Origin: a virus
DNA length: 32,199 nucleotides
Reading direction: 5' to 3' (one strand)
Virus record (IMG/VR): IMGVR_UViG_3300025853_000368
Coordinates: 1-32,199 of that record
The notes beneath the pieces were generated by a model. That model saw only the letters and a list, made by a program, of their open reading frames with translations, did no database searches and was not told where the DNA came from. Numbering within the stretch: the stretch's first letter is position 1; every line of letters starts with the position of its first letter. The position numbers were made by a program, and so were the translations under genes. Shown one piece after another: positions 15,842 through 27,708 of this stretch.

Positions 15842-15954
15842 GTTAGCTTCCTTCTAAAAAACAAAAACATAAGGTTTTCAAACTCGCCACGGTTGTCCAG
15901 GGTGGGCCGCTTACGCAAGTCACCGGCTCAAGAAAAGAGTTGTCGGCTGTTTGA

Positions 15955-15983
15955 AATATAAACAGTTTTTTCGCATCGGTCAA
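15955..15983 (-). promoter_or_regulatory. Sigma70-type promoter for the major capsid gene, with operator-like dyad
   Basis: On the minus strand TTGACC (15983-15978) and TATATT (15960-15955) are separated by exactly 17 nt with an A6 run in the spacer. The -10 element sits inside a dyad, CTGTTT and AAACAG (arms 15960-15965 and 15947-15952, 7-nt centre), a possible operator. Transcription would start about 105 nt before the capsid ATG. Confidence 0.65.
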
Positions 15984-15997
15984 ATGGATGGAGGAGA

Positions 15998-16015
15998 TGG
16001 CGCCCGTAGGCGCCA
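15998..16015 (-). other. GC-rich hairpin after the scaffold gene
   Basis: TGGCGCC and GGCGCCA form a perfect 7-bp stem with a four-base loop, 8 nt after the scaffold stop. On the minus strand it is followed by TCTCCTCC, not a U-run, so it is not a standard terminator. It may pause polymerase, protect the 3' end of scaffold mRNA, or mark an RNA-processing site ahead of the capsid promoter. The remainder of the 15842-16022 gap holds the capsid promoter and leader. Confidence 0.6.
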
Positions 16016-16022
16016 AACTTGA

Positions 16023-19872: not shown

Positions 19873-20357
19873 TAATATGTCCTCGCATACATAATGTAAT
19901 CGCTACCGTCAGGGCCATATGCCTTCATCAGGCCTTCTTCCTTAAATTTCAGGAACTTGGCCCACTGAATCGCATAATCGCGCTTGACACTTACCACGAT
20001 TTGCACTCTGAGTAAATCGAGGTGTGGGCCAATCTTATCAAAAAAACGCATAGCTCCGCGACACAAAAGCGTGCCGTGGTTGAAAGCGACTGGGCCAGGC
20101 ACCAGCCAAGCCTCAGCATTTGTCGCGAACTTATATTCCAAGCCAAAGCAAAGGGCTGGCTCCCGTTTATAAAACATGGTCCAGCCGGTTTTATTTTCTG
20201 CCACAGTTTCAAACCGCTCTTTCATATTCGCAATATGTGAGAACAGCTCGATGTCGTCAGCGCTTGGCCCGACCCGGTCGATGTGGGTAGGGTGAAACGG
20301 CAGCACAACCAGGTGGCGCATGTTCACAAGGTGGGTAATTTCTTCAGCTGTCACCAT
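19872..20357 (-). CDS. T7 gp13-like / GNAT-fold protein
   Basis: The protein has 161 residues. The pattern fits a GNAT-like fold seen in T7 gp13 relatives (DUF2833): N-terminal strand MRHLVVLPFHPTHIDRV, a middle strand PALCFGLEYKFATNAEAWLV, then GAMRFFDKIGPHLDLLRVQI and VSVKRDYAIQWAKFLKFKEE, ending near GPDGSDYIMYAR. The usual acetyl-CoA pyrophosphate-binding Q/R-x-x-G-x-G/A loop is not obvious, so an active acetyltransferase is doubtful. T7 gp13 is needed for internal core assembly; the role here is inferred. It overlaps the terminase stop by 7 nt and is followed at once by head-associated genes. Confidence 0.7.
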   Translation of the reverse strand: MVTAEEITHLVNMRHLVVLPFHPTHIDRVGPSADDIELFSHIANMKERFETVAENKTGWTMFYKREPALCFGLEYKFATNAEAWLVPGPVAFNHGTLLCRGAMRFFDKIGPHLDLLRVQIVVSVKRDYAIQWAKFLKFKEEGLMKAYGPDGSDYIMYARTY

Positions 20358-21949
20358 ATCGTAAAATCCGTTTTTGCCGTGAATTGTTGACCACGCGCTC
20401 CAGCAGCACCATAACGTCCCCCGTACCCTCGCGTCATTACACGATGCTCACCGCCGCCGAGCAGTAGATAACCAAACGCATCACCAACGTGCGAGTGTTC
20501 GTTTTTATTCGGCGCATCTCGGAATCTTTCTGTACCTCCTCCGACTGCGACGCGCTTGAAGTGGTATCCGCCGGCTAGAGACTTGCGCAGCCGTTGACAA
20601 TCTTTGTGAACCAATAGCCCAGGCTTTCGATCAATAAACCGATTCATAGGCATCGCTCCCGCTTCACGGCGCACCTGGAAGTCGTTACTGGCCGTAGGCC
20701 GAGCGTTGAGTCCGAGCGTGCGCAGATGATCAAAGGCAGTCACCTCAAAGATTTCATCGCGCTTGCTACCGGCAGGGTCACCCCAGACCAAGATATCTTG
20801 CTTTGGATAATTCACGTTGATCTCGTTGAGCAAGATCAAGCCGAACCGCTCCAGTCCCATGTCGTCTGTCACGATCTCCTTGAAGATATGCCAAGCGCCA
20901 GCTGCTGTGCGCTGGCCGAACACCGCCGCAGGCGTCAAACCAAAGTCGAGCCCAATGTGAACTGGCAGTGTCGGATCGACCTGGATCTCCTCAGTCGACA
21001 TGACTGAGTCATCATACTCAGGCCAGACCGGACGACCCTCTTGGACATACACATACTCGCCGCCGGCATAGCAGCGAATCCAGTCCAGGTTCTTCCCGCC
21101 GAGCTGCTGATCATAATAGCCAGGAGGCAAGTTGTTAATGTTCTCGGCCTTGGGGTTCACTTTCCAGAATTTATTAGCGGCAGGGATTCCAATTGGATCG
21201 TCGCGGTTTGTCTCGATCACGCCACCAGGCTGCTTGAAGAACTCCCATTTGTATTTGCCGCGCACCGGCTCCTTCTCCGATAGGCGATACCACCAGTGGT
21301 CGTCATCCATCGGGTTGGTGTCCATCCAAATACCACGCCATGGACAACCGCCGTTTGACTTAGTCGGATAACGACCGACCCGGTGTGTTAATCCTTGCAC
21401 AACAGCTAACGGCAATTCCCTGGCCTCATTCACCCAGGCACCAGTCAGTTCCAGAGAGAGCAGTTTCCTGACGTCCTTCGGTTGATCAAGCGCCATGAAG
21501 ATCACTTCACAGTCGATGCCGGCTGCGTCCCCACGCGAGGGCAGCTTGATGTGGTGACTGATCGGTGGCGACCAGCGCATCGGCCCCCAGATGTTCTCTG
21601 GGAACAGCTCAAGCCATGTCTTGATGGTTGTGGTGCGCAGCTCAGGGTATGAGTTCCGCACGATCACGAATCGTGAGTACCTGATCCCGTCTTTCGGCGA
21701 CGGTGGCTGCTTCACGGCGCGCAGCATGATCTCAGCAGCGCAACCGTATGACTTACCCGATCCTACCGGCCCCATCAGACCGCGCACAAACGAATCGTCA
21801 TGCAGGAACTTCCAGGTCGTCGCCGCGCCTGAGAAATCGAGACTCAGCCCACCAAGCGCCTCGTCAGAAGAGATCTGCTTGGTCGTCGTCCTTCTTCGGC
21901 GTTGGGTCGATCGTTGGCTCTGATCCGTCGCATTCGTTGCTCTCGCCAT
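20351..21949 (-). CDS. terL: Terminase large subunit (packaging ATPase and nuclease)
   Basis: The protein has 532 residues. Walker A is GPVGSGKS at about 60-67. The Walker B/catalytic Glu is in TGAWVNEARELP (Glu about 175), and the coupling motif MDTNPMDDDHWWY lies at about 209-221. The C-terminal RNase H-like nuclease carries acidic residues in HIGLDFGLTP (about Asp335), VWGDPAGS (about Asp391) and HVGDAFGYLL (about Asp480). It cuts concatemeric phage DNA and pumps it through the portal. GAGGT precedes the ATG by 8 nt. The gene begins inside the small-subunit gene, with an unusually long 86-nt overlap, and the N-terminal ~45 residues (Arg/Thr-rich) are poorly structured. Length and motifs are complete. 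Confidence 0.96.
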   Translation of the reverse strand: MARATNATDQSQRSTQRRRRTTTKQISSDEALGGLSLDFSGAATTWKFLHDDSFVRGLMGPVGSGKSYGCAAEIMLRAVKQPPSPKDGIRYSRFVIVRNSYPELRTTTIKTWLELFPENIWGPMRWSPPISHHIKLPSRGDAAGIDCEVIFMALDQPKDVRKLLSLELTGAWVNEARELPLAVVQGLTHRVGRYPTKSNGGCPWRGIWMDTNPMDDDHWWYRLSEKEPVRGKYKWEFFKQPGGVIETNRDDPIGIPAANKFWKVNPKAENINNLPPGYYDQQLGGKNLDWIRCYAGGEYVYVQEGRPVWPEYDDSVMSTEEIQVDPTLPVHIGLDFGLTPAAVFGQRTAAGAWHIFKEIVTDDMGLERFGLILLNEINVNYPKQDILVWGDPAGSKRDEIFEVTAFDHLRTLGLNARPTASNDFQVRREAGAMPMNRFIDRKPGLLVHKDCQRLRKSLAGGYHFKRVAVGGGTERFRDAPNKNEHSHVGDAFGYLLLGGGEHRVMTRGYGGRYGAAGARGQQFTAKTDFTIW

Positions 21950-22334
21950 CTTCTAATACCTCATAGGTGGTCACTTCTGGACCCTTCAAATTAATTCCCA
22001 AAATACTTGGCCGGCTGTCAGAATCACTGTTTGGCTCGGTTAGTCCATGATACCTAGCTAACACGCGCAGAGCTGATAGCTTGTCATGCATCTCAACCTC
22101 GATCGCGTTGCCGTATTGATTCGGCGTCACCTTCACTTTCTTGATCGCTTTCTGGACGTGCTTCGGTATGTCGGCGCTTGAAAGCAGCGCCATGCCGCCA
22201 GACTGCGTCCACTGCAGCACATCGGTCACGTTGGACGCAGCGATCGCTTGCAGCTCCTGTTTGACTGCTTCCTTCTCATCGTCCGACCCGATCGCCAGAA
22301 CCTTACGCGCTTCCCGCACTGTCATCTTGGACAT
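21864..22334 (-). CDS. terS: Terminase small subunit-like protein
   Basis: The protein has 156 residues from the ATG at 22334, chosen because GAGGT lies 8 nt upstream; an ATG at 22370 would add 12 residues but lacks such a site. The N-terminal half is helical (TVREARKVLAIGSDDEKEAV), followed by an oligomerisation-like segment, and the end of the folded part reads PNQYGNAIEVEMHDKLSALR with VLARYHGL. That last word is typical of the C-terminal part of Terminase_2-type small subunits. The acidic tail ends PKKDDDQADLF. It should recognise the packaging site and load the large subunit, whose gene starts inside it. Sequence specificity unknown. Confidence 0.82.
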   Translation of the reverse strand: MSKMTVREARKVLAIGSDDEKEAVKQELQAIAASNVTDVLQWTQSGGMALLSSADIPKHVQKAIKKVKVTPNQYGNAIEVEMHDKLSALRVLARYHGLTEPNSDSDSRPSILGINLKGPEVTTYEVLEDGESNECDGSEPTIDPTPKKDDDQADLF

Positions 22335-22581
22335 TGCAATGTACCTCTTTGATTTCATCCATGTCGGCAAAAGTTAGGAACAGTGGTGCGCCTGGTCCCA
22401 TCACTAGCGGCAGGATGATGTTGTCAAAAAATTTAATCGATTCGTCAAACGTGAGCTCCATTTCAGATTGCAGCTTCCCGTAAATTTTTGCTGTGTCGTA
22501 CACCAATCGATCGGGTTCGCCGCAACCAAACGCGATTCCGGCGACGCAACTGTCAAATCCTTCTAGGCTGATCATGCTCAC
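22303..22581 (-). CDS. Hypothetical protein upstream of the small terminase
   Basis: The protein has 92 residues from GTG at 22581 (GTGA overlap with the preceding stop); ATG at 22575 is an alternative two codons on. The product contains CVAGIAFGCGEPDRLVYDTA, then ESIKFFDNIILPLVMGPGAP and FLTFADMDEIKEV. The NIILPLVMGPGAPLFLTF region is hydrophobic but too broken for a clear membrane helix. I do not recognise the family. Its end overlaps the small-terminase start by 32 nt, so it belongs to the same operon. Five-prime neighbour is the DUF3310 gene. Role unknown. Confidence 0.65.
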   Translation of the reverse strand: MSMISLEGFDSCVAGIAFGCGEPDRLVYDTAKIYGKLQSEMELTFDESIKFFDNIILPLVMGPGAPLFLTFADMDEIKEVHCNVQDDSAGSA

Positions 22582-22853
22582 AGTTTCCTTGCAATCTCCA
22601 ATAAGGTGGCCTCGGCTTTCAGCTCCTCCTGGTATTCGTCCTCCTCAATATGATCGACGATTTTTTGGATGAACCAGATAGCCTTCTTGAGATCATCTTT
22701 ACCGCCTTTCTCTTTCCAGCGCCAGAGGTACTTGATCGCCGAGCCGATAGCGTAGGCCTCAGCGCCTGAGAGCTTTTGGACCGCTGCCTCAATTGCGTCG
22801 ATGCATTCCATGCCGTCGCGCTGGTAGTGATTTGGATTAATGATATCCGTCAT
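22578..22853 (-). CDS. DUF3310 protein
   Basis: The protein has 91 residues from ATG at 22853; GGGAG stands 8 nt upstream. An upstream in-frame extension to 22928 is rejected because it runs through the G-rich hairpin of the non-coding gap. NPNHYQRDGMECIDAIEA, then AYAIGSAIKYLWRWKEKGGK and DLKKAIWFIQKIVDHIEEDE give the DUF3310 pattern: an NP-x-HY start and a K-YLWR(W/Y)--KG--DL-KA--Y/F core. DUF3310 is sometimes labelled nucleotide kinase-like, but the activity is not well established. It is common in phage replication modules. It is the first gene after the origin-like gap. Confidence 0.88.
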   Translation of the reverse strand: MTDIINPNHYQRDGMECIDAIEAAVQKLSGAEAYAIGSAIKYLWRWKEKGGKDDLKKAIWFIQKIVDHIEEDEYQEELKAEATLLEIARKL

Positions 22854-22895
22854 TTTACTTCTCCCGTCGGATTTCTGAAAAATTTTGAGCGAGAT

Positions 22896-22925
22896 CCCCC
22901 CTCTGGCGCATATGGGGTAGGGGGG
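22896..22925. repeat. C-tract/G-tract inverted repeat
   Basis: CCCCCCT at 22896-22902 pairs perfectly with AGGGGGG at 22919-22925 around a 16-nt loop that includes CATATG. The segment is ~45 nt before the DUF3310 start. No U-run follows on either strand, so it is not a simple terminator. It could be a structural element of an origin or of a packaging site. Confidence 0.6.
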
Positions 22926-22975
22926 CAAGGGTGTCCATTTTTTGTACAGCGGAAAGCCCGGCGACCAGGCAGCGC

Positions 22976-22984
22976 CTATCCACA
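22976..22984 (+). promoter_or_regulatory. DnaA-box-like site (one mismatch)
   Basis: CTATCCACA differs from the consensus TTATCCACA by one base. It lies in the non-coding gap in inverted orientation to the perfect match at 23095-23103, 110 nt away. Confidence 0.45.
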
Positions 22985-22994
22985 GGGTTTACGG

Positions 22995-23059
22995 GCGATT
23001 TGGCGATTGTGCAGTGCAGCGATTTAACATAATAGATGTTACGCGCCATGGTGCAGTGC
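22995..23059 (+). repeat. Short iteron-like direct repeats
   Basis: GCGATT occurs at 22995-23000, 23003-23008 and 23019-23024, and GTGCAGTGC at 23009-23017 and 23051-23059. Clustering of these words beside an initiator-like gene suggests binding sites for a phage replication or regulatory protein. Copy number is small, so chance is not excluded. Confidence 0.45.
23025..23041 (-). promoter_or_regulatory. Operator-like dyad over a candidate -10 element
   Basis: TAACAT (23025-23030) and ATGTTA (23036-23041) form a perfect dyad with a 5-nt centre. On the minus strand the centre reads TATTAT, a good -10 hexamer directed toward DUF3310 and terminase. No good -35 is found 16-18 nt upstream, so promoter activity would need an activator or be weak. 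Confidence 0.4.
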
Positions 23060-23094
23060 GGTAAGTCATTGATATATAACGCATTCGTTTTTTC

Positions 23095-23103
23095 TGTGGA
23101 TAA
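23095..23103 (-). promoter_or_regulatory. Perfect DnaA box
   Basis: On the minus strand this is TTATCCACA, identical to the high-affinity E. coli DnaA box. It lies 16 nt downstream of the initiator-like gene stop, next to an AT-rich stretch (GATATATAAC). One nonamer match alone could be chance; location makes it notable. Confidence 0.5.
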
Positions 23104-23118
23104 CTTCATGTCAATTGG

Positions 23119-23802
23119 TCATTTATTGTACAGGCCAGCCCACTTGGCGACCTGGTCTAGATTGGCCGGCGGAGTGCGCCCAGCCTTCAACGATTCGCGG
23201 CACATCGCAGCTGTGTAATCACGCACCTGATCAACCGTAACCTCTTGATCCCAAAGGACTTTTGCTGCCTTGAAGCTCTGATCTGGCAGCCGATTCATCC
23301 CGGACGCTCTCTCGACTGCCTGCTTGAATGCATGTGCTAGTACTTGATAGCCCTTGTCTGAGTCCCCTTTAACCCCTGACTGCATATGTGTATCGAACTC
23401 GGTGAAGTCGTCCTCTCCAGGCTCAGGAATGATCTTGGCTGGCGCCCAGAACTGCTCGTTGGTCGGGATCGCATCTTTGCCCTCCCACAGTATCTGATAG
23501 CGGTTCACCTTTTTGCCTGAGCGCCGCTTGATGTGTTTAGGGTATGGCCTTGTCTCTAGCTTCCTGACGTAGCCACACTTGATCAGCACTGCCATGGTCC
23601 GGCTCACATGAACGCGACCGTAGCCTGTGTGCCGTCCTATCGTTATCTGTGATGGCCAACACACGCCGTACCGGTTCGCATACATGCCCAAACAAGCAAG
23701 CACCTTGTAAGCAGCACCATTGAGCCGCTCATCTTGCATAGCCCTAGCTGGGATGATCGAGTAGCGCCTGATGTTCGGCTTATCCTTAAAAGGGGATTTC
23801 AT
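23119..23802 (-). CDS. Replication initiator-like protein with winged-HTH domain
   Basis: The protein has 227 residues. A winged helix-turn-helix (HTH_36-like) covers about residues 28-90: LNGAAYKVLACLGMYANRYG, then VCWPSQITIGRHTGYGRVHV, then SRTMAVLIKCGYVRKLETR. That arrangement (K-VL--L---AN--G-CWPSQ--L---TG-----V-R----L---G-) is typical of phage replication proteins of the O/DnaA-N class. The C-terminal part (about 140-220) is helical, with DQVRDYTAAMCRESLKAGRT, and resembles helicase-loader or primosome-binding tails. It lies after the primase-helicase and its partner and immediately before an origin-like gap. It probably binds the origin and recruits the phage or host helicase. It overlaps the upstream gene by 17 nt. 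Confidence 0.75.
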   Translation of the reverse strand: MKSPFKDKPNIRRYSIIPARAMQDERLNGAAYKVLACLGMYANRYGVCWPSQITIGRHTGYGRVHVSRTMAVLIKCGYVRKLETRPYPKHIKRRSGKKVNRYQILWEGKDAIPTNEQFWAPAKIIPEPGEDDFTEFDTHMQSGVKGDSDKGYQVLAHAFKQAVERASGMNRLPDQSFKAAKVLWDQEVTVDQVRDYTAAMCRESLKAGRTPPANLDQVAKWAGLYNK

Positions 23803-24295: not shown

Positions 24296-24465
24296 TTTTC
24301 ACCCCACCGGACATCGGCGGACAGATGTGGACAGACAGGACAAACTATAGTGTTTGTCCGTGTCCGTCCGCACCCTGTCTTTGTCCCAGATTGTGTCCGT
24401 TCCGTGTCCGCGTTTGTCCGCGAATCCATACAACCCGCGTCATTGCTGGCTTTCATAGCTTTCAT
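24292..24465 (-). CDS. 57-residue micro-gene encoded through a CGGACA repeat array
   Basis: The start ATG at 24465 overlaps the primase-helicase stop as ATGA, and its own stop overlaps the next start as ATGA, so it fits exactly into the operon. The product has Arg-Thr pairs from CGG-ACA codons (SRTNADTERTQSGTKTGCGR and following RTRTN), then a VCPVCPH word with Cys-x2-Cys and a nearby His, possibly a small metal-binding knuckle. A GTG at 24510 would extend it into the primase frame but has no ribosome binding site. The coding case rests on double ATGA coupling; the repeat could instead be the function (see repeat entry). Function unknown. Confidence 0.5.
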   Translation of the reverse strand: MKAMKASNDAGCMDSRTNADTERTQSGTKTGCGRTRTNTIVCPVCPHLSADVRWGEK

Positions 24466-24496
24466 ACTTTGTCCGATCCGTGTCCGAGCGTGTCCG
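24308..24496. repeat. CGGACA/TGTCCG hexamer array with inverted halves
   Basis: TGTCCG occurs at 24355, 24361, 24394, 24405, 24415, 24470, 24481 and 24491 on the plus strand, and its complement CGGACA at 24308 and 24318, with degenerate TGGACA and AGGACA between. The two orientations meet in a hairpin, GGACAAAC and GTTTGTCC, around TATAGT near 24338-24358. The array spans the end of the primase gene and the 57-residue ORF. It resembles an iteron array or protein-binding cluster. Confidence 0.75.
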
Positions 24497-26378
24497 TTTC
24501 CTTCACCCACTCCATTTTCCGATTTCCGGCGTGGACAACCACAATGTCCGCACCTTCCAGCGCATTAATTGCACGTCCCCAAGCCTTCCTTGCACGGTCT
24601 TTTGCCTTCTTATCCGTCACGTCCAAACCTTCCTTTTCGAGCAGCCAGAAGACGAAAGAGTCTCTGGCAACTTCCACACTGATCACATCATTTCTGTCCG
24701 TTGCGTCGCGTAAACAGTTCATCGCCTTCAGCTCTTTCTCATTAAAGCTGGCACTGTCAGCTGCAATGGCGTCAGCTGTCACCTTGTTGAGGTACACAGA
24801 TGTCTCACCTCCGATCGTGCCGACCTCAGCGCTCTGCATCTCAAAGAACAAATCCTCAGCTGGCTCTGCGTCCTTCTGCTTCTCCGTCACTACCGTAAGG
24901 ACGGCGCCTGACTTCTTGACCTGGATGCTGGTATCTACAGCTCCGAGCAATGCGCTTGATCCACGCATCCCTCTGCTGCCGTCCTTGCCACTGTGATGAA
25001 TACCCAGTAGAGCAGCGTTGTAGCTTTGCTTGAGCACGTCGCAGGTCTTCACAAACTTACCGACATCTGTCGCTGAGTTTTCATCTGCGCCGAGTAGAGC
25101 TCTGGCAACCGTGTCCACAACAATCAGGCTGAAGCCGCCGGCCTTATCCTCCAGCTGCTGGATCGTTGCCTTCAACTTCTCCACGTCTGTCGGGCTGGTG
25201 AAGTCCACTGCGGTTGGCAGGACATAGAACGGCAGCTCTTTCTCTGTGACTCCGCTGCCTCTGTTCTCTAGCCATGCCTTGACTCTTTTGCCAATACCGC
25301 CGACACCTTCGCCTGCAATGTAGAGCACTGCGCCCTGCTTGACTGGCATGTCATGGAAGTCTCTCCCTGATGCGACGCAAAGAGCAATGTCCAAAGCAAG
25401 GAACGTCTTACCGCAACCCGGTGGTCCATACATGACGCTGAAGCCGTGTCTGGTAAATAATGAGTCAACCAGGAACTGCACTGGCGGCATCGCCATGAGC
25501 TCACCGATCGCCATGGTTGGATAGGTTTCGATCTCTTCCTGCTCGATCTCACCTGGATCTTGCATCGCCTCAGTGATTGACGGTGCTGTCTTGACCATGC
25601 TGATCAGCTGCTGTTGTGTCTTGCCGCTGTCCAGCCAGTCAACGATGTCGCCCTTCTCAGGTAGCTGGTCGGATAGATCTAAGAGCCTGACCTCTTTAGC
25701 GACTGGTAAAAGGCTGTTGACCACCTTTGCGCCATGCTTCCGTCCTGCTTCGTCGTTGTCTGGTACCACAATGACCTGTCGATCTGCGAGCCACTTGGAG
25801 TGCTCGTCGCCCCAGTTGCCGGAGCCGCCGTTGTTGGTAGTGGCAATGATTCCAAGATCTCTGAGCCGCTCGACACACTTCTCTCCTTCGACCACCCATA
25901 CCCACCGCTTGTTGTGGTGAAGTATCTCAGGAAGGTTGTAGGGGATGCGCTCGATGTCCTTGATGTTTGAGATCCAGCCACCTTGTCCGTCTGGGCGCTG
26001 CTGTCTGAATGTTTTCTTTCCATCTGCAAAGTCTGTCCTGACGACCTGGTAGACCAACACTCCGTGATCACCGATGTAGTCATAGGTTGTGATCCTGTTT
26101 CGATCTTTCTTGGTGAAGCTCGGGTCTTTCTGCATCCCGAATCGCTTCTCTAAAAAGTCAGCCAGGTGTCCGTTTGCCTCCGGGTACGCAATCTTGCACA
26201 GATCAACGAATCCTCCAGACTCATTTGTTTCATGATCGGTCCAGACGCCTTTCTCTTTGTCGACGCTCTTTGAACCGTAGCTACCGAACCGCACTTCATG
26301 CCCATGGGACATCTTATGATTGATGTCGCCCCACAGCTCCTGTGCAACTTCGACAATGTGTTCAGCATACTTGTGCAT
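24462..26378 (-). CDS. Bifunctional primase-helicase (TOPRIM plus RepA-like AAA+ ATPase)
   Basis: The protein has 638 residues. The N-terminal ~100 residues hold a DNA-binding/zinc-less primase head. The TOPRIM domain follows, with VVEGEKC (162-168) and VVPDNDEAG (204-212) carrying the catalytic Glu and Asp residues. A RepA/RecA-like ATPase (AAA_25) spans about 290-520, with Walker A GPPGCGKT (318-325), Walker B SLIVVDTVAR (417-426) and HHSGKDGSRGMRGSSA (461-476) as sensor/arginine region. The C-terminus is a helical, possibly winged-helix domain. It should lay down primers and unwind phage DNA at the fork. A GGGGTGAT site precedes the ATG. It lies 14 nt after an intrinsic terminator, so its expression is probably set by read-through. 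It is followed by a coupled micro-gene. Confidence 0.93.
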   Translation of the reverse strand: MHKYAEHIVEVAQELWGDINHKMSHGHEVRFGSYGSKSVDKEKGVWTDHETNESGGFVDLCKIAYPEANGHLADFLEKRFGMQKDPSFTKKDRNRITTYDYIGDHGVLVYQVVRTDFADGKKTFRQQRPDGQGGWISNIKDIERIPYNLPEILHHNKRWVWVVEGEKCVERLRDLGIIATTNNGGSGNWGDEHSKWLADRQVIVVPDNDEAGRKHGAKVVNSLLPVAKEVRLLDLSDQLPEKGDIVDWLDSGKTQQQLISMVKTAPSITEAMQDPGEIEQEEIETYPTMAIGELMAMPPVQFLVDSLFTRHGFSVMYGPPGCGKTFLALDIALCVASGRDFHDMPVKQGAVLYIAGEGVGGIGKRVKAWLENRGSGVTEKELPFYVLPTAVDFTSPTDVEKLKATIQQLEDKAGGFSLIVVDTVARALLGADENSATDVGKFVKTCDVLKQSYNAALLGIHHSGKDGSRGMRGSSALLGAVDTSIQVKKSGAVLTVVTEKQKDAEPAEDLFFEMQSAEVGTIGGETSVYLNKVTADAIAADSASFNEKELKAMNCLRDATDRNDVISVEVARDSFVFWLLEKEGLDVTDKKAKDRARKAWGRAINALEGADIVVVHAGNRKMEWVKETDTLGHGSDKV

Positions 26379-26955: not shown

Positions 26956-27352
26956 CTTCTTCTCCTATTTCTCTGACTATGCCGCACCACAGCTCAAAGC
27001 TGATCTGCGCGACGCTGTTGATGTCATGCTGCTCATAGCAGTCATGACCAGGTCCGATCCAGTTGATGTACACCTGGATTGGCTTCCTGTCTTGTTTCAC
27101 AAAGAGGACCGCACGCAACCCCTTGGCCGCTGCTTGTGCTTCACACTGCAGCCAAAAGGTCTTGATGTCTGAGGGTACGCAGGTCGCGTACCTTTTACAC
27201 TCGATGCTCCAACCAGGCACGCCGGATAAATCATCACCGCCTTGCTGGTATTGCTCTAGGTTTCTCTTGCAGTCGTACCCGAGATGATCTCGGATCATGC
27301 CAGCAATCTCTCTCTCGAAAGTGGCACCCTTGCGACGGGACATGGCTCCCAT
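26942..27352 (-). CDS. PD-(D/E)XK nuclease, probable Holliday-junction resolvase type
   Basis: The protein has 136 residues. The pattern is RRKGATFEREIAGMIRDHLG, then GGDDLSGVPGWSIECKRY, which gives an N-terminal Glu (about 14), Asp 40/41, and Glu51-x-Lys53 as a PD-(D/E)XK active site. This arrangement is common in small phage resolvases and Hjc/VRR-like nucleases that process branched DNA. ATG at 27352 has AGAGGA 5 nt upstream and is preferred over the ATG at 27343. It is the first gene of the leftward replication operon, next to the divergent promoter region. Substrate not provable from sequence; a DNA repair or recombination role is likely. Confidence 0.78.
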   Translation of the reverse strand: MGAMSRRKGATFEREIAGMIRDHLGYDCKRNLEQYQQGGDDLSGVPGWSIECKRYATCVPSDIKTFWLQCEAQAAAKGLRAVLFVKQDRKPIQVYINWIGPGHDCYEQHDINSVAQISFELWCGIVREIGEEDARS

Positions 27353-27372
27353 ATGTGTCCTCTTTGGTTATG

Positions 27373-27392
27373 TATCGGCAAGCCTATCGGCA
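27373..27392. repeat. Tandem TATCGGCA direct repeat in the divergent region
   Basis: TATCGGCA occurs at 27373-27380 and 27385-27392, spaced 12 bp start to start (about one helical turn). It lies 20 nt upstream of the leftward nuclease start and 29 nt upstream of the rightward promoter -35. It is a candidate binding site for a regulator of one or both operons. Confidence 0.5.
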
Positions 27393-27415
27393 CAAATTTA
27401 ACCGCACAAGATAAA

Positions 27416-27450
27416 ATGTGTTGACACATGTGGAACCTTTGCCCTAACCT
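27416..27450 (+). promoter_or_regulatory. Rightward early promoter with operator-like palindrome
   Basis: TTGACA (27421-27426) is a perfect -35, followed after 18 nt by TAACCT (27445-27450), a weak -10. The -35 is inside a perfect dyad ATGTGT-TG-ACACAT (27416-27429). It lies ahead of the early plus-strand operon, whose first ribosome binding site AGAGGAG is ~25 nt further on. The palindrome is well placed for repression by a dimeric HTH protein. A leftward promoter for the replication operon must also lie here but none is clear. Confidence 0.6.
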
Positions 27451-27486
27451 GTCTTTGTCGATGAGGGAAACAAGAGGAGATTCGAC

Positions 27487-27708
27487 ATGATCATTGGATA
27501 CAACCCGAACTATCCTTCGCTTCATATGCGCGAGGCTTTGGAAGCGATTGTAAGTGGAGAGGCGGATATCTTGGGATGGAATGCTGAGGAGAAAGCTTCT
27601 GTTGTTGCTCAGGCCAAAACTTTAATTTTTGAGCGCGGGGAAAGTTTCATTAAAGCCGAGTTATCGCGCATGAATTCCTTGTTGAGTTTGATTGAGGAGG
27701 TTGCGTAA
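27487..27708 (+). CDS. Early small hypothetical protein
   Basis: The protein has 73 residues, the first gene of the rightward early operon, with AGAGGAG 8-9 nt before the ATG. Sequence begins MIIGYNPNYPSLHMREALEA and is mainly helical afterwards (EKASVVAQAKTLIFERGESF), with an acidic end. Nothing in it points to a known family. Its stop overlaps the next start (TAATG), so translation is coupled. First genes after an early promoter are often host-takeover or anti-defence factors; this is inference from position only. Confidence 0.7.
   Translation: MIIGYNPNYPSLHMREALEAIVSGEADILGWNAEEKASVVAQAKTLIFERGESFIKAELSRMNSLLSLIEEVA

Follow-up and report, generated by a model that had tools for sequence, protein, structure and literature searches.

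A candidate DnaA-assisted replication origin beside a family-wide GC-rich element in a marine phage

Introduction

Which function does the longest gap between the genes of a marine phage serve? We analysed the entire IMG/VR virus record IMGVR_UViG_3300025853_000368 (32,199 bases; hereafter the window), in which a gap of 265 bp (22854-23118) separates the stop of a putative replication initiator gene (23119) from the start of a DUF3310 gene (22853). It was described earlier, from the sequence alone, as the only long gap, and it is indeed the longest intergenic stretch seen in the list of open reading frames, the runner-up measuring ~180 bp (15842-16022). This original prediction proposed a replication origin that uses host DnaA, a proposal that holds in part. 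The DnaA boxes are conserved and track the initiator gene, but the left third of the gap (~75 bp) is a different element that had been missed. Comparisons among relatives make it moderately probable that a DnaA-assisted origin occupies the right-hand two thirds (~22946-23118) and that the left part (22871-22945) is a separate family-wide site, likelier to serve packaging than replication. The packaging assignment is the weaker half of this joint claim.

Relatives were collected in three ways. A search with the 227-residue initiator gave 15 virus contigs (43-100% identical), a search with the large terminase gave 80 additional contigs, and two DNA patterns gave further relatives among the matches listed. 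We compared 17 distinct gaps within the window's clade, whose initiators are 48-100% identical to that of the window, and 161 distinct relatives within the family.

Conservation of the DnaA boxes

All words named in the original prediction are present in the gap: a perfect and a near-perfect DnaA box in inverted orientation, three GCGATT words and two GTGCAGTGC words. The perfect box, R1 (TTATCCACA, 23095-23103, minus strand), is an exact consensus match at +15 after the initiator stop. The inverted box, R2 (CTATCCACA, 22976-22984, plus strand; TGTGGATAG on the minus strand), has one mismatch. The whole window contains 5 boxes with at most one mismatch against 5.9 in shuffled sequence, which is chance level. 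Hence, the window by itself proves little, and it is conservation in relatives that carries the argument.

Across the clade, R1 did not vary in any of the 17 distinct gaps, and its distance past the initiator stop was +15, +26 or +29. In 14 of these gaps R2 was kept as TGTGNAT, located at +131 to +134, and its variation falls mainly at the free base N of the DnaA consensus TTATNCACA. The longest invariant run in these gaps is an AT-rich block of 10 bases, TTATGTTAAA (23023-23032, minus strand), which may be an unwinding element or part of a promoter. It is followed by the 9 bases of TTATCCACA, and then by CAAAATT and the GGGGG of the GC-rich element on the left. Judged by this pattern, the DnaA boxes look selected. 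The other words fared less well, because the GCGATT words (22995-23000, 23003-23008 and 23019-23024) are conserved in the closest relatives only and the GTGCAGTGC pair in few, so that both are mostly specific to a subclade. On the minus strand the latter reads GCACTGCAC. Its first copy (23051-23059), a direct repeat termed D1, may be the initiator-binding or repressor-binding half of a pair spaced by 42 bp, and the place of its second copy (23009-23017) is occupied by a dyad, TTGTGC-N3-GCACAA, in 7 of the 17 gaps.

Could the gap simply encode a protein? A frame of 84 residues (22855-23109, minus strand) is open, has an ATG in the window and ends beside the ribosome-binding site of the downstream gene. 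However, the ATG is absent in 10 of the 17 relatives, the frame is shifted in others, and the product has no family match. The coding explanation was rejected as hardly credible because the frame is not conserved, and we treated the gap as non-coding.

Boxes and iterons across the family

In the 161 distinct relatives, the initiator gene plus 150 bp contained 33 perfect DnaA boxes against 1.0 expected, compared with 14 against 9.3 expected elsewhere. Sixteen of the 33 are the site after the gene in the window's clade. Nearly all the remaining boxes lie inside long initiator genes (at least 780 nt), where the reading frame often translates them as Pro-Val-Asp-Asn/Lys within a linker of the protein. 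The linker of these long initiators holds a textbook origin layout, in which a DnaA box is accompanied by two or three dyad iterons and a 40-base stretch of 72-88% AT. The iterons (TGTAAC-N7/8-GTTACA, ACAAGC-N4-GCTTGT and ACAACC-N6-GGTTGT) often begin ~21 bases past the box. Pairs of repeated dyads near the initiator numbered 51 against 1 in shuffled sequence, the majority of them in long initiators, and an independent repeat finder concurred for L272 and L232. Six relatives with short initiators (L064, L076, L077, L166, L224 and L246) share a perfect DnaA box, AAAGTGTGGATAAACA, ~680 bp before the initiator start, which may indicate that an origin can occupy a third position, or may be a coincidence of the coding sequence.

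The product of the gene next to the gap (23119-23802, minus strand) is an initiator-like winged-helix protein of 227 residues (HTH_36, 8.3e-07). It had been said to look like a phage initiator, and it matches phrog_270 (replication initiation, 1.8e-12), as do 47 of the 47 scanned relatives. In its predicted structure, a disordered linker (residues 125-147) joins the winged-helix domain to a helical C-terminal domain, and this linker is the position that holds the iterons in the longer relatives. A fold search with this model returned generic winged-helix matches only, with no E value below 0.001.

From these comparisons, the origin of the window's clade, whose initiator is short, would sit after the initiator gene rather than inside it. 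The winged-helix initiator, encoded just upstream, would probably bind the nearby dyad or direct repeats, while host DnaA would bind the two inverted boxes R1 and R2. Together they would melt the AT-rich block TTATGTTAAA, after which the phage primase-helicase would enter and copying would begin with the host polymerase. Beyond the conservation of the sites, every step of this scheme (binding of DnaA and initiator in the gap, melting of the AT block and the start of replication there) is one that we infer by analogy with lambda and with plasmid origins that contain DnaA boxes (PMC5043065).

Arguments against an origin, and a possible control region

Several observations weigh against an origin in the gap. 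Its AT content is just 52.5%, with one invariant AT decamer and, at the edge of the gap, a 40-mer of 72.5% AT. Its iterons are poor: a single GCACTGCAC pair, unconserved through the clade. Because all 17 clade sequences belong to one lineage, they cannot be counted as that many independent events. Furthermore, boxes are missing in 116 of the 132 relatives with short initiators, while every one of the eight boxed clade members with sufficient flanking sequence has its own primase-helicase; DnaA thus cannot be a general requirement. Most relatives that carry the primase-helicase also lack a DnaA box at the initiator. Finally, the cumulative GC skew over the window keeps its sign through 22.9 kb and makes no turn at the gap. 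The turn expected there was therefore absent, and the minimum lies instead near 27.5 kb, where it coincides with the switch of gene strand; for small phages, a turn in skew is a supporting sign and no strict requirement. The region of this minimum and strand switch (27000-27700) is divergent, lies beside a PDDEXK nuclease gene and may contain early promoters.

The primase-helicase also bears on the earlier suggestion that use of host DnaA explains the missing phage polymerase. This is a weak inference, since the window encodes its own primase-helicase (24462-26378, minus strand; AAA_25, 1.1e-39; phrog_906 and phrog_239) and relatives with such a gene are mostly unboxed. The window's type of primase-helicase is absent from 12 of the 13 long-initiator loci with enough flank; the exception, L008, belongs to the window's clade and has an extended start. 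The in-gene iteron origins were found in members without this type. Presence of the window-type primase-helicase splits the family, with G010 (L234), G011 (L262), G012 (L267) and G013 (L239) on one side and G001, G004, G006 and G008 on the other.

The main rival to an origin is a control region, in which the boxes and the AT block would form a promoter, tuned by host DnaA and perhaps with the initiator as repressor, that drives the packaging and head genes, while replication begins elsewhere. The gap leads a long series of packaging and structural genes on the same strand, the invariant TTATGTTAAA could belong to a -10 region and is flanked by the GCACTGCAC words, and DnaA is a known transcription factor (PMC8203912). 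However, a sigma-70 scan, which covered the standard promoter type only, reported no promoter match at the TTATGTTAAA block. Moreover, the boxes of the long initiators lie within coding sequence, alongside iterons and a stretch rich in AT, an arrangement that suits an origin more than a promoter. We therefore regard a DnaA-tuned control region as rather improbable, and retain a DnaA-assisted origin for the part of the gap to the right of the GC-rich element.

The GC-rich element

The left part of the gap contains a GC-rich element (22871-22945, minus strand), detected by nhmmer at 22942-22871 (1.5e-12; the window itself contributed to the model). It consists of a C-rich arm, a variable core of ~10-14 nt, a G-run, TC-N-C and CAAAATTTT. 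The order initiator-element-terS-terL was found in 137 of the 143 loci in which all three genes were visible, always on the same strand. Roughly a hundred related phages share the element, which occurs with or without DnaA boxes, and also beside complete in-gene origins. Because the scan patterns were derived from the element, its share in the collections obtained with them is inflated, and the terminase-based set is a fairer guide. For the same reason, the share of phages that pair the element with an in-gene origin, which were fetched by an element-derived pattern, is not a measured frequency.

The element appears to act as DNA. An RNA hairpin was rejected, because a variant class has CAGTCCCCC in place of the G-run, a sequence unable to pair with the C-run. 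In addition, pairing covariation is absent from the core (palindrome score of 2.48 against 2.52 in column shuffles); both facts indicate a DNA rather than an RNA feature. A cruciform with a dyad-symmetric core was rejected on the strength of this palindrome score as well. In twelve relatives (L230, L253, L261, L263, L265, L270, L275, L279, L281, L300, L302 and L306) the G-run is swapped for CAGTCCCCCAC, while the C-rich arm and the AT-rich end are retained.

A variable core between fixed arms, the single copy and the adjacency to the terminase genes suggest a packaging site. Position and the circular assemblies (PMC8024684) are consistent with pac. Three findings count against packaging. The element lies tight behind the initiator (median 65 bp from its stop) and at a variable distance from terS (196-4343 bp), its divergence tracks the initiator and terS equally (partial correlations 0.19 and 0.13), and the enrichment of contig ends near it is only slight (5 against ~0.95 expected upstream, 3 against 0.54 downstream). 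Overlapping ends, as in circular assemblies, occur in 7 of the 10 near-complete contigs (six of 110-126 bp, one of 55 bp), and these ends lie elsewhere. Together with the mild enrichment and the circular assembly of Methylophilales phage MEP301 (PMC8024684), they make fixed cos ends doubtful. On the sequence evidence, the chance that the element is a packaging site, either pac or cos-like, seems about even.

Two further explanations concern the element. It might itself be the origin, as the binding site of the initiator, and be retained for that purpose in nearly all relatives. Its closeness to the initiator stop would fit, as would a divergence correlated with both the initiator and terS, and most phages with short initiators have no other visible origin. 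Yet the element lacks iterons, is retained by long-initiator phages with a complete in-gene origin, and stays similar even though the initiator diverges to ~30% identity. An origin in the element is therefore unlikely. Alternatively, the entire gap might be one packaging region, a cos or pac site plus its flanks, with the DnaA boxes as clade-specific filler. Such a region would agree with an element that is nearly family-wide and on the terminase side, and with the mild excess of contig ends. But an invariant exact 9-mer at a fixed distance, with the box counts given above (33 against 1.0), is hardly filler, and the overlapping contig ends and the circular MEP301 oppose simple fixed cos ends. 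We consider a packaging function for the whole gap very unlikely, and keep to two adjacent sites, a DnaA-assisted origin on the right and a candidate packaging site on the left.

The element consensus had no match in known phages. A profile search for it in Hodr, Ss1, VA-RY-3, Pmp11 and BcepC6B gave nothing significant; Hodr and Ss1 show a likeness by eye (TTGCTCAC[AG]CAA near the small terminase) that we do not count as evidence.

Comparison with known systems

The origin of lambda lies within gene O and consists of inverted-repeat iterons bound by the initiator, followed by an AT-rich stretch (PMC5043065). As in lambda, the origin would be tied to the initiator gene, and the long-initiator relatives share the in-gene layout. 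Unlike lambda, these relatives add a perfect DnaA box, whereas in the window's clade the site follows the gene and has few iterons or none, and the window phage owns a primase-helicase. The iteron plasmids P1, F, pSC101 and R6K likewise have a DnaA box, initiator repeats and an AT-rich region close together, and the gamma origin of R6K is bounded by DnaA sites (PMC5043065). Here, in contrast, the relatives have in-gene dyads and the window has weak repeats. In repABC plasmids the origin lies within repC, near an A+T-rich region (PMC3155836). The long-initiator relatives resemble this arrangement of an origin within the initiator gene with an A+T-rich region nearby, but the repABC origin has neither iterons nor DnaA boxes.

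The GC-rich element shares with the 3' cos sites of HK97 and D3 a GC-rich run by the terminase genes and a single terminase-linked site. The known HK97 and D3 ends nevertheless show no visible resemblance to it.

The nearest cultured phage is MEP301, whose TerL is 72% identical to that of the window. MEP301 also has a winged-helix gene followed by a gap, with its best match to the element at the expected place (E 0.09), and like the window it has no phage DNA polymerase (PMC8024684). It differs in that no perfect DnaA box was seen in its gap; its host is a marine OM43 methylotroph.

Flanking genes and the window as a whole

From the gap, the minus strand reads a DUF3310 gene (22578-22853; PF11753, 1.7e-14), a small gene of no assigned function, the small terminase subunit and the large terminase subunit. 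The small terminase (21864-22370) matched PF03592 Terminase_2 barely over the cut-off (7.7e-06), and its position between the GC-rich element and TerL is family-wide. The large terminase (20351-21949) matched phrog_2 (4.2e-23). At one related locus (G014:C1:8496-10019), an in-frame TAA interrupts the large terminase match. In L266 and L268 the initiator gene is immediately preceded by an open reading frame that, as read from the sequence, resembles a DNA cytosine methyltransferase and lies ~1-1.9 kb upstream of the element.

The window is up to ~4 kb shorter than its near-complete relatives (32.3-36.1 kb), and the record may be incomplete. Searches against known phages with megablast, blastn, or tblastn using the initiator gave no match. 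A search of bacterial genomes for a host returned just four contigs, which come from unrelated phyla and include three or more short contigs of metagenome-assembled genomes.

Implications

We tentatively propose that in this large, almost uncultured family of marine podovirus-like phages of 33-36 kb, the origin and the packaging signal form a compact locus behind the initiator. The packaging signal would have stayed fixed, while the origin may have moved between an in-gene position, with a lambda-like module of DnaA box and iterons in phages without their own helicase, and the 3' gap, as in the window's clade. The comparison has identified a strongly conserved DNA element on the terminase side, with a core that varies. 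If the proposal is true, it would provide a testable origin for an abundant group of marine phages with essentially one cultured relative, MEP301, and an example of an origin that has left its initiator gene.
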